DNA from: Candidatus Saccharimonadota bacterium
GTDB taxonomy: Bacteria > Patescibacteriota > Saccharimonadia > Saccharimonadales > UBA4665
Length of the DNA: 64,000 nt
Assembly: GCA_014377695.1 (NCBI GenBank)
Contig: JACMPA010000009.1
Coordinates: 62,001 to 126,000 of the forward strand
Direction of reading: 5' to 3'
Positions 28,224 through 37,409 of this stretch are shown piece by piece. How positions within the stretch are numbered: position 1 is the first letter of the stretch; each line of letters starts with the position of its first letter. Position numbers and translations under genes: made by a program. Below the pieces are notes generated by a model. The model saw only the letters and a list, made by a program, of their open reading frames with translations, had not been told where the DNA came from and ran no database searches.

Positions 28224-28709
28224 ATGTCCTTCTTACGGCCTAAAATAACCACCATTCATGACGTACAGAGTCATGTTTGGGTGCACCCGTTGGATAGGGA
28301 AGCTAGTACGCGGTCGAGCAACCCATACATCAGTCGGTTGGCTCCGCGCGGCCGTAGCATGTTCTTTGAACTAGACAGGACTTTATCGCTTGATCAAAAG
28401 CGCGTTAGAGGCGAGCTGGTGGGAGCTGTAGTCTTTTCAGGGCGAGATCATAGTCTAGCGGACCATCGGAGTATCGTCGTGGCACTGCCACTAAGGGGTA
28501 CTCACGACAACCGAGGTTACGTTGCAGCTCAGATTACAGCTGAGCAAATGACAGCTGAGACGGATAAGCACACTACGGCTATAAAGCTTGCGGAAGTGGC
28601 AGCAGCCATTGCGGTCCATGGATATTTACAGGCCAGTATTGTTACTCAAAGTCTACAGGTTTCGGAAGCGACAACTCACATGCTGAATCGTCTATGGCAG
28701 GTGCGTTAA
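28224..28709 (+). CDS. Hypothetical protein inserted between rpsG and fusA
   Basis: 161-codon ORF with SD GAGGAA upstream; no recognised family. Confidence 0.55.
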   Translation: MSFLRPKITTIHDVQSHVWVHPLDREASTRSSNPYISRLAPRGRSMFFELDRTLSLDQKRVRGELVGAVVFSGRDHSLADHRSIVVALPLRGTHDNRGYVAAQITAEQMTAETDKHTTAIKLAEVAAAIAVHGYLQASIVTQSLQVSEATTHMLNRLWQVR

Positions 28710-30983: not shown

Positions 30984-31013
30984 AACTGACACGGCCATGG
31001 CGGCCGTGTCAGT
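30984..31013. terminator. Strong hairpin between convergent fusA and lipid kinase genes
   Basis: AACTGACACGGCC-ATGGC-GGCCGTGTCAGTT. Confidence 0.65.
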
Positions 31014-31038
31014 TATTCTATACAAAGATTTGCGCTGC

Positions 31039-31977
31039 TTAGGCGGTGGTTGCTAACAAATACAATGGCTGATCAGCTGGCACTACCGACACGGTAGTGC
31101 CAGCTTTTAATTGACGGACTTCGCCGTCAAACTGCATCCAAGTGTCGGATTCAAGCCTAAATGAGCGGTCTTTGACGGTACTGCCCTTAACCCAACTACG
31201 AGTCAGGTGAGCCAGGTGCGTAAATAGTACGGGGTACTTACGTAGTACTCTTACTTCGACAAAACCCGGTTTGGTTAAATCTGCCGGTGTGCGGTAGACT
31301 TTCGCCATCCGTGGTCCATTCACCAGCAATAGGTCGTACATCGTAGTTTCTTGGTTTGTTTGTGTGGTAGTAAATCGTTGAGCACGCTGCAGGGCTATTA
31401 AGCTTACTATCATTTCGGAGATGAACCGCGCCGGGGCAATGCGGGTAGTAGCGGTAACTAACTTGGATTCATCGAGCGCATTAGCGGCAAAGGCCACCGC
31501 ACCGAAGCTGACGTAGCACATGGCATACGCTGACTCTTCTACTTTGCCAAGTTTCAAGTGGTACTGCATCGGATGCATCTCGGTTCGCTCACCTTGGTGC
31601 AATAGTGGCCGAATGTCCGTGCGCCGCTTGCCATTAGCCATAGACGCCAAGTCGCACGCGTTCCCCCCCCAGAGTGGCAGAATAGTAGCCTGTACAGCCG
31701 AGGACGATGCACATTTTTGTAGCTGATTTAAAACGTAGTTGGCCGTACCATCGCCACCCAATACGGCCAACAAACATTGCTTATCCAGCTGTGCCAATCT
31801 AGCGCGAAGCTTCTTTGGTGAATCAAAATCTTTAGATGTTAATCGATATAACTCAAAATTATGATCACCATAGGTCTCTTTTAATTGTGATTCGTAATGA
31901 CGGCTCCAGCGGTAGCTAGTGCCTTTGGGGTTGGTTATAAGTAGACAACTGGTAAGTCGATTAGTTTTTTGGGTCAT
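31039..31977 (-). CDS. Diacylglycerol/lipid kinase family protein
   Basis: LLITNPKGTSYRW, VLGGDGTANYVLNQL, PLWGGNACDLA (variant of the GTAND motif); ends with a beta-rich domain. Confidence 0.85.
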   Translation of the reverse strand: MTQKTNRLTSCLLITNPKGTSYRWSRHYESQLKETYGDHNFELYRLTSKDFDSPKKLRARLAQLDKQCLLAVLGGDGTANYVLNQLQKCASSSAVQATILPLWGGNACDLASMANGKRRTDIRPLLHQGERTEMHPMQYHLKLGKVEESAYAMCYVSFGAVAFAANALDESKLVTATTRIAPARFISEMIVSLIALQRAQRFTTTQTNQETTMYDLLLVNGPRMAKVYRTPADLTKPGFVEVRVLRKYPVLFTHLAHLTRSWVKGSTVKDRSFRLESDTWMQFDGEVRQLKAGTTVSVVPADQPLYLLATTA

Positions 31978-32606
31978 GATGTTTTCCTTAGGTCTGTCGT
32001 ATAGGCTTGGCTACTGTGTACCGCAAATATGACGAAAGCGACAAAGCCAATCCAAGCTAGACCCAGTATTGCATGCCGAGTTAATCCTGCGCCGATACCA
32101 AGCGCACTAGCAAACAATAGTACTACGACCCACTCGAGAGCCGCAGCTAGCTTGCCATTGCGCGACGGATGTAACCGCTGAGCAGTAAAGAGTGCCCAAC
32201 CAAAGAGCAGAACATTATACACCGCATGTAGGGCCAAAAAGCCAAAGACAGCCGTCGGTAACAGCTGGATTATCCATAAAGTCATGACGCTGGCGGCTAA
32301 TACGACTTTATCGGCGGTGGCGTCCACCGCCTCGCCTATCGGGCTCTTGGTGCCAGTATAGTCGGCAACAACGCCGTCAAATAAGTCAGCCAACCTGCCA
32401 ACCAATAACAAACTGACTCCGAGCATTGTGTTGACGTCTAATGCTAATACGTAGAGTCCGGTGAGAGCGATAAAGCTCCCAAATATCGTAACGGCGTTAG
32501 CTGGCGTAATGTAGCCTTGGGTGCGAGCAGCATACCGTTGCCAAACGGTACGATCGGCGATTGCGACCTCATCCCAATCGTTCCCATTAGCGCGATGTAA
32601 TTTCAT
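31974..32606 (-). CDS. CDP-alcohol phosphatidyltransferase family protein
   Basis: DLFDGVVADYTGTKSPIGEAVDATAD matches DxxDGxxAR(x8)GxxxDxxxD except R is D; several TM segments; ATGA overlap with the lipid kinase. Confidence 0.85.
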   Translation of the reverse strand: MKLHRANGNDWDEVAIADRTVWQRYAARTQGYITPANAVTIFGSFIALTGLYVLALDVNTMLGVSLLLVGRLADLFDGVVADYTGTKSPIGEAVDATADKVVLAASVMTLWIIQLLPTAVFGFLALHAVYNVLLFGWALFTAQRLHPSRNGKLAAALEWVVVLLFASALGIGAGLTRHAILGLAWIGFVAFVIFAVHSSQAYTTDLRKTS

Positions 32607-32648
32607 GTAAATACAGTAGCACGAGCCGCTGCAGACTCATGCTAGAAT

Positions 32649-33212
32649 GTGGCTATGCTAGTCCATGAAATATTGTTTGCACTATGGTTGTTTTGGTCGG
32701 CTGGCGTGGCCACGCTTATACCAGTGTTAGCGGCGCACGCGCCTGGCATGCGGGCGTGGAGTGCGCCAATGGACGGCGGTAAAACGTGGAGAGGCCGTCG
32801 TATCCTGGGCGATCATAAAACTTGGCGGGGCTTTTTGGCTGGCTGGATTGGTGGTAGTCTCTGGGGTCTAGTGCAAGTTGCTATCTACAACCACAGTACT
32901 TTTGTTCAAAACTTTTATCCGGAGAGCTTTCCGGTTGACAAGTTTTTGGTGACAACGGTGCTTATAAGCCTCGGCGCCGTTGTCGGTGATGCTGTTGGCA
33001 GCTTTTGTAAGCGTCAGTTGGATATCCCCTCGGGCAAAAGCTGGTTTCCATATGACCAACTAGACTTCATTTTGGGAGGCATAATCTTGAGCCTCATCCT
33101 TGTTCGGCTCCATCTTTCACAATATTTAGTAATTATCGGGGTATGGTTGGGTGTTCATTTGCTGTTTGGCGTGCTTGGTTACCTAACACATCTTAAGGAA
33201 GAAATTATTTAA
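32649..33212 (+). CDS. CDP-archaeol synthase (CarS/DUF46)-like integral membrane cytidylyltransferase (start GTG 32649 or ATG 32655)
   Basis: PMDGGKTWRGRRILGDHKTWRGFLAGWIGG and GDAVGSFCKRQLDIPSGKSWFPYDQLDFILGG resemble conserved CarS/CdsA-superfamily motifs. Confidence 0.85.
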   Translation: MAMLVHEILFALWLFWSAGVATLIPVLAAHAPGMRAWSAPMDGGKTWRGRRILGDHKTWRGFLAGWIGGSLWGLVQVAIYNHSTFVQNFYPESFPVDKFLVTTVLISLGAVVGDAVGSFCKRQLDIPSGKSWFPYDQLDFILGGIILSLILVRLHLSQYLVIIGVWLGVHLLFGVLGYLTHLKEEII

Positions 33213-33275: not shown

Positions 33276-33599
33276 ATGAGTAGCGCAGAATCATATACAT
33301 TTACAACTGAATCAGATGCAATGAACCCAGTCTTAGTCGATACCAGCGCCTTCTTGCCTGAAGGCCACCCACATAAGCTCAATGATAGGCTCAATCATTC
33401 AAATGATTCACTGGCTATTTCCCCAGAGATACGTACAGAAATTATCGGCTATCGTCGGCTATCGAAATCATTATTATATGAAATGATGGAGCTTGAGCAA
33501 CAAGGCATAACGACGCCTACAGAGCTAACGACCCGTTATAATCGATATGTTGAACTTGCCGAAATTGCCCGTAATAAATCTTTCCACTCACAAGCTTAA
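33276..33599 (+). CDS. Hypothetical protein
   Basis: 107-codon ORF upstream of tuf; no recognised motif. Confidence 0.45.
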   Translation: MSSAESYTFTTESDAMNPVLVDTSAFLPEGHPHKLNDRLNHSNDSLAISPEIRTEIIGYRRLSKSLLYEMMELEQQGITTPTELTTRYNRYVELAEIARNKSFHSQA

Positions 33600-36350: not shown

Positions 36351-37409
36351 ATGTGTGAGCAATATGAATACGGCATTGAGCACCCTAATCAAGACACTTG
36401 GATTAAGGGTTATTCAGAGCGGGTAGATGAACTTCAGCAAAAAGCATTAGCAGAACGCTATTTCGAATTTGGTAAAGATGAAATTAACCTACCTGACTTA
36501 GCTGCGGCTATTGACACAGCCACACTCATTAATCACAGCTATCGTGACATGCATGAAGCTTCAAATCGTGGAATACTAAATATTGGCACAAGGGACTCAG
36601 CAGGCGATGCAGGCATACTACGCTCGGAGTACGACAATTTTGCCGGCAGATCAAAAAAAGTCAGCGATTTCATCATGTGGTTTAGTAAAACATCACATGA
36701 TACTTTTGTTAATCATGAAGATTTGCCTGCCAGCAAGCAATTTAAACATGTCTCATTAGAATTGGGTGGGATTCGCCAATCAGGAGACTGGAATGTAACC
36801 GGACCTCTTGATAGGATGGCACGAAGTATTCCGCGCGGCGTCTTATCCCTCAACCCGGATGTTCGTATGACAATTTATGATCCGCAATCGGAAATGTTTG
36901 ATGATGCCCGGGTAAGTTACGTCGATAGTTACGACAAGGGCTATTTACTACTTCCTCAATACAAATTGCCAGAACCTTCAACGAGGTTGATGACGCACGA
37001 TGTGTTTATTGGCGAAGAGCTCGGTGTCTCGGCACTGATAGATTTTCATTATTCAGTCATACGAAGACGTCGACCCGTTGCAGATATCTATGTACCAGGT
37101 CAATCTGACTTAGTTATATTTAAGGAATCGATCGGTTTATTGGTTATGGACGCGCTTGATGCCACACTTAGAAAACGCATATTGCAAGATTGTTCGCAGG
37201 CATTTGAGCACGCTCGACATGGCCGTGATATTGAAGGCACGGGTAACATGAAGTTGAATGATACAGTTGGTGCACGCTTAGCGGGTAACTTGTTTGAGAG
37301 CGCGATCGAGAGTCGTGATGGCGTAACAAAAGATATTATCCCTATATCAGCGCACTACGTGCAAGCAGTTGGCAAAAAATATGTCAGTTTCCGTGAAGAC
37401 GCAGTCTAG
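36351..37409 (+). CDS. Hypothetical protein between rpsJ and rplC
   Basis: 352-codon ORF, no long internal competing frame; no recognised family. Confidence 0.65.
   Translation: MCEQYEYGIEHPNQDTWIKGYSERVDELQQKALAERYFEFGKDEINLPDLAAAIDTATLINHSYRDMHEASNRGILNIGTRDSAGDAGILRSEYDNFAGRSKKVSDFIMWFSKTSHDTFVNHEDLPASKQFKHVSLELGGIRQSGDWNVTGPLDRMARSIPRGVLSLNPDVRMTIYDPQSEMFDDARVSYVDSYDKGYLLLPQYKLPEPSTRLMTHDVFIGEELGVSALIDFHYSVIRRRRPVADIYVPGQSDLVIFKESIGLLVMDALDATLRKRILQDCSQAFEHARHGRDIEGTGNMKLNDTVGARLAGNLFESAIESRDGVTKDIIPISAHYVQAVGKKYVSFREDAV

Follow-up and report, generated by a model that had tools for sequence, protein, structure and literature searches.

A compact three-gene locus in a member of the Saccharimonadales probably encodes a minimal phospholipid headgroup module, in which a lipid kinase, a CarS-like cytidylyltransferase and a PGP-synthase-like CDP-alcohol phosphotransferase would act in this order, with Lys87 of the transferase as a relocated cation. 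We assign this reading a probability of roughly 0.6. The locus is located within the analyzed stretch of 64,000 nucleotides, referred to as the window. We infer the catalytic activities, the substrates, the headgroup and the contact of Lys87 with the phosphates as follows. The kinase would phosphorylate a scavenged diacylglycerol-like lipid to phosphatidate, which the CarS homologue would convert with CTP to a CDP-lipid. The transferase, in which the four predicted metal-binding Asp are intact, would then release CMP and attach an alcohol headgroup, glycerol-3-phosphate being the likeliest, to give an anionic phospholipid. Lys87, a conserved residue (Arg in some relatives) placed in the TM2-TM3 loop, would replace a lost Arg as a clamp on the CDP phosphates.

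All three reading frames of the original prediction are present in the window, and its layout, with kinase and transferase on the minus strand and CarS divergent from them, was confirmed. The lipid kinase of the DAGK_cat / YegS-DgkB superfamily (31039 to 31977, minus strand, 312 aa) carries the motifs GGDGT, PLWGGNACDLA and DGE. The CDP-alcohol phosphotransferase (31974 to 32606, minus strand, 210 aa) belongs to an Arg-less Saccharimonadales subfamily. Its signature, D1xxD2G1xxA[D82]xxxx[K87]xxxG2[E92]xxD3xxxD4, spans 32307 to 32387 on the same strand, with Asp82 at 32361-32363 and Lys87 at 32346-32348. The start codon of the kinase gene overlaps the stop codon of the transferase gene by 4 bp (ATGA), which suggests translational coupling of the two. 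A divergent intergenic region of 48 bp (32607 to 32654) separates the transferase and CarS genes. It is the presumed site of both promoters; a promoter scan of this region returned no sigma-70-like match and nothing above chance. The CarS-like (PF01864) cytidylyltransferase gene (32655 to 33212, plus strand) belongs to a frame that opens with GTG at 32649, but the ATG at 32655 is the likelier start because relatives begin with MLxDI.

In the window, the locus is flanked by fusA and tuf. Conservation in related genomes had been proposed as a check, and the order fusA / kinase-transferase / CarS / tuf indeed recurs in three of them (G025, G026, and G073). Between the convergent fusA and kinase genes, at about 30988-31016, lies a 12-bp inverted repeat, ACTGACACGGCC-ATGGC-GGCCGTGTCAGT, perhaps a shared terminator. 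Three further frames among the ribosomal and elongation-factor genes, 28224-28709 (161 aa), 33276-33599 (107 aa) and 36351-37409 (352 aa), match no Pfam family and are missing from the related loci searched.

In an HMM search, all three enzyme families named beforehand scored above the curated Pfam cut-offs. The kinase reaches 33.8 bits with PF00781 (DAGK_cat, cut-off 23.6) and 23.5 bits with TIGR00147 (YegS/Rv2252/BmrU lipid kinase), below the cut-off of 118.65 bits. Its own sequence matches no PDB entry, and its single-sequence AlphaFold2 model has a pLDDT of 38; for a CarS-linked relative, matches to DgkB and sphingosine kinase were obtained. Membership in a non-lipid kinase family, which would speak against the original prediction, was thus not borne out. 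The CarS homologue scores 105.9 bits with PF01864 (cut-off 22), contains the core motifs GDHKT and DQLDF, and can be aligned with the solved CarS of Aeropyrum (5guf; E-value 2e-14). With NCBIfam PRK04032, the CDP-archaeol synthase equivalog, it reaches 127 bits, under the 148-bit cut-off. To call an archaeal-type CarS a distinctive feature was an overstatement, since CarS is scattered across the Patescibacteria (50 of 382 genomes sampled); this scatter is not a new observation.

The window genome (820 kb, 89% complete) contains one transferase, one CarS and one DAGK_cat gene, all at the locus. No full-length CdsA was found in it; PF01148 matches nothing there except the CarS gene. Together with the PF01864 match, this agrees with the predicted CarS rather than CdsA type. 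In a search of 91 family genomes, full-length CdsA-like matches turned up in only four (G067, G090, G015, and G074). Single-family searches for ketoacyl synthase, PlsC, PlsY and PcrB likewise drew a blank in the window genome; these absences are provisional, since the genome is 89% complete. Within this scope, there is no sign of a full fatty-acid or phospholipid pathway elsewhere in the genome, which had been named as evidence against the predicted module. Archaeal-type isoprenoid lipids were considered and provisionally set aside, given that no PcrB/GGGPS match was obtained from the 89%-complete genome.

With full-length CdsA, ketoacyl synthase, PlsC, PlsY and PcrB all missing from these searches, we favor a headgroup pathway of the salvage type. 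Most CPR bacteria lack lipid synthesis, yet their cells carry acyl lipids (PMC7242380). The salvage idea of the original prediction is consistent with the absences but is not new for Saccharibacteria, as lipid uptake and headgroup interconversion are proposed by Starr et al. 2018 for a Saccharibacterium without fatty-acid synthesis (PMC6031116). The A. fulgidus CarS has a marked preference for archaeal DGGGP rather than bacterial phosphatidate and failed to rescue an E. coli cdsA mutant (PMC9385802); acceptance of diacyl phosphatidate by the window homologue is therefore an assumption of our scheme.

The transferase scores 41.6 bits with PF01066 (CDP-OH_P_transf, cut-off 22) and has a predicted six-TM fold. 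The canonical CDP-alcohol signature reads D1xxD2G1xxAR...G2xxxD3xxxD4. In the window, the motif DLFDGVVAD-YTGTKSPI-GEAVDATAD (residues 74-99) keeps the four signature Asp and both Gly (D74, D77, G78, G91, D95, and D99). The Arg of DGxxAR is absent; Asp82 takes its place in the aligned motif, as had been predicted, and Lys87 stands at +5. A structure model with a pLDDT of 90 retrieved CDP-alcohol phosphotransferases at all Foldseek ranks from 1 to 28, topped by the PGP synthase structures 7drj/7drk (TM-score 0.63-0.67 on the query and 0.71-0.73 on the target, probability 1.00, E-values of 0.003-0.009 and thus above 0.001). In a profile search 7drj was again best (2.6e-10), and for two Arg-less relatives the full-length match with the highest score is NCBIfam pgsA. 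By fold model and profile, the closest fold and family is PGP synthase. With TIGR00560, the PGP synthase equivalog (cut-off 109.1), the window transferase scores 28.5 bits and two Arg-less relatives 46.6-61.2 bits; at scores below the equivalog cut-off, PgsA is a model of how the transferase may work rather than an assignment.

The pathway could be the same with a transferase of the PIP/inositol type, or one for another headgroup, as proposed for soil Saccharibacteria. The top NCBIfam score of the window transferase, 42.3 bits for archaetidylinositol phosphate synthase, points in this direction, and so do 12 other related genomes, in which CarS adjoins a second, Arg-bearing transferase type (DTLDGELAR...) with members matching PIP/archaetidylinositol-phosphate synthase models. 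We regard this alternative as unlikely: the NCBIfam match is limited to residues 33-132, the common signature half, and the acceptor half carries HPSRxGK, similar to GK..T of PgsA, and lacks the two Arg with which PIP synthases bind inositol phosphate. Fold and profile, too, are nearest to PgsA.

Gene linkage extends beyond the window. In 11 family genomes, the window included, CarS has the Arg-less transferase as its neighbor, and the kinase adjoins this transferase or the CarS next to it in eight, again counting the window; the latter adjacency is also present in G299, a member of another family. In G065 (L040:7207-8838), Arg-less transferase and kinase are fused into one reading frame of 544 aa with the kinase motif AAGDGT. 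G029 (L036:7648-9315) contains a 556-aa frame with two CDP-OH domains, an Arg-less one (TGTKGPVGE) and a canonical, PgsA-like one with the Arg, from which the kinase gene is divergent. The predicted lipid module is linked in the window and in relatives, but it is not universal. By a hand tally, 20 of the 39 family genomes with an Arg-less transferase have neither CarS nor full-length CdsA, and 10 of these are at least 95% complete (G003, G005, G008, G016, G019, G020, G066, G084, G085, and G088). Either the CDP-lipid is scavenged in such genomes, or an unrecognized cytidylyltransferase exists, or the substrate differs. Shared lipid genes beside the CarS-less transferases were discarded as candidates, the neighbors being dnaX, dnaB, LytR, DUF3817, SIMPL and amylase genes.

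These synthase-less genomes and their unrelated neighborhoods favor another explanation, according to which the Arg-less transferase uses no endogenous CDP-lipid but scavenged CDP-DAG, or performs another exchange on host lipids, with a secondary link to CarS. Against it stand the direct linkage to CarS, seen in 10 family relatives as well as in the window, the retention of all four metal Asp, and the possible existence of an unrecognized cytidylyltransferase, so that we consider it quite improbable. As a tentative and rather doubtful extension, many Arg-less Saccharimonadales transferases, their clamp cation shifted from the TM2 Arg to a Lys/Arg of the TM2-TM3 loop, might work in cells without a CDP-lipid synthase of their own, using host CDP-lipids directly or exchanging headgroups on stolen phospholipid.

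Returning to the preferred module with its relocated cation, solved enzymes reveal the role of the residue concerned. In PgsA1 of M. tuberculosis, CDP-DAG is in contact with R76 through its alpha-phosphate and with the backbone of loop residue T82 through its nucleotide (PMC6506517); in Xenopus CHPT1 (xlCHPT1), the corresponding contacts are those of Arg119 with the diphosphate and of the Ser124 backbone with cytidine (PMC10182977). In the solved relatives 7drj, 7b1k, and 6h53, the Arg is retained throughout and position +5 is V or G. We aligned 94 transferases with a clear motif from the window's family and the wider phylum. Lys or Arg occurs at +5 of the following loop in 47 of 47 Arg-less sequences (39 Lys, 8 Arg) and in 0 of 47 Arg-bearing ones. 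The former Arg position is occupied by D (19), E (12), A (6), K (3), H (2), N (2), or by Q, L or T. The remaining loop positions reveal no such reciprocity in this alignment. A raw Fisher p on the 94 rows ignores relatedness and is not counted as evidence. A paired switch predicts what is seen in the Arg-bearing L109: this transferase, encoded next to a kinase gene and with both the LH...W and the HPSRxGK hallmark retained, carries Ser at +5.

In trees built without the motif columns, the Arg/Lys label requires 4-5 changes, i.e., joint switches, and not one of 200 bootstrap trees manages with a single change. However, no more than 1-2 changes are forced by branches with strong support, and a single origin is not rejected by the AU test (p 0.066); the correlation may thus rest on few independent events. 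The original prediction deduced altered chemistry or substrate from Asp-for-Arg. The residue change stands, but altered chemistry need not follow, as Lys/Arg is always gained five residues on; an explanation by the lost Arg alone is weakened accordingly. The reciprocal pattern suggests that the phosphate-binding cation was relocated to the +5 Lys/Arg, and the chemistry of the Arg-less transferases is probably kept. That they are dead or decaying, with an incidental Lys at +5, is highly improbable: the lost residue does contact the alpha-phosphate in solved enzymes, but the signature Asp and Gly, Lys87, Glu92, HPSxxGK and the N-terminal motifs show little or no variation among sequences of about 30% identity, frames are open across many genomes, and the reciprocal pattern has no exceptions.

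Asp-for-Arg is no oddity of a single gene but marks a subfamily found only in the Saccharimonadales, the window's order. Among 382 genomes spread across the phylum, matches to the subfamily profile above 150 bits occur only in this order; the others remain below 92 bits, and all of those with an inspected locus carry Arg. A first scan of genome contigs (P0002) found no relatives. Scanning with alignment A2 found ten, nine titled Saccharibacteria or Saccharimonadia and one only "bacterium", and a two-pattern scan yielded no loci beyond these. A viral scan found no relatives. The literature searched, mainly outside subscription journals, yielded nothing on the Arg-less subfamily.

A second, more degenerate CDP-OH family was observed in related Saccharibacteria (L132:7759-8346, L143:9537-10115, L150:5156-5734, L155:3849-4448, and L156:648-1223). 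Its D..DG..AR part resembles SDAEGSL or TDMEGSL, lacking AR, and Lys or Arg occurs shortly before G2 (PSKxG, PTKxG, PTRxG). The three members tested all score over the Pfam cut-off.

The locus bears on the way in which Patescibacteria build membranes without fatty-acid synthesis, as it points to three genes through which host-lipid remodelling could be tested. The CDP-alcohol phosphotransferase superfamily occurs in all domains of life, and the Arg-to-Lys relocation constitutes a clean natural experiment on its signature residue, in a subfamily that appears confined to one order of epibionts. If the relocation is true, K87A should abolish activity and D82R plus K87V should restore it.

Among the known systems close to the locus is the glycerophospholipid interconversion set of the soil Saccharibacterium 'T. 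rhizospherense', for which the accessible text of Starr et al. 2018 describes no fatty-acid synthesis, proposed lipid salvage, a putative phosphatidate cytidylyltransferase and CDP-alcohol transferases; this text mentions neither a compact kinase-transferase-CarS locus nor an Arg-less motif (PMC6031116). With YegS/DgkB/BmrU-type lipid kinases, the window kinase shares the DAGK_cat domain, GGDGT and a DGE near the C terminus, but it lies far below the TIGR00147 cut-off and has a divergent GNACDLA segment. The CarS homologue shares the core motifs GDHKT, GDAVGSFCKR and DQLDF with CarS (PF01864, PDB 5guf). In contrast to CDP-archaeol synthase CarS, it is bacterial, scores below the PRK04032 cut-off and resides in a genome without a PcrB/GGGP synthase match. 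Eukaryotic CHPT1/CEPT1 share with the transferase the Glu directly after G2 (G2ExxD3), but keep the motif Arg, have 10 TM helices and a catalytic His after D3, where the window transferase has Ala. With PgsA (PDB 7drj/7drk; TIGR00560), the transferase shares the fold, the four-Asp signature and the GK acceptor-side motif at about 19% identity. It differs from PgsA by Asp for the Arg of DGxxAR, Lys at +5, a conserved Glu after G2, an extra residue in the P-x-N-x-x-T motif and a conserved N-terminal LHR...W segment.
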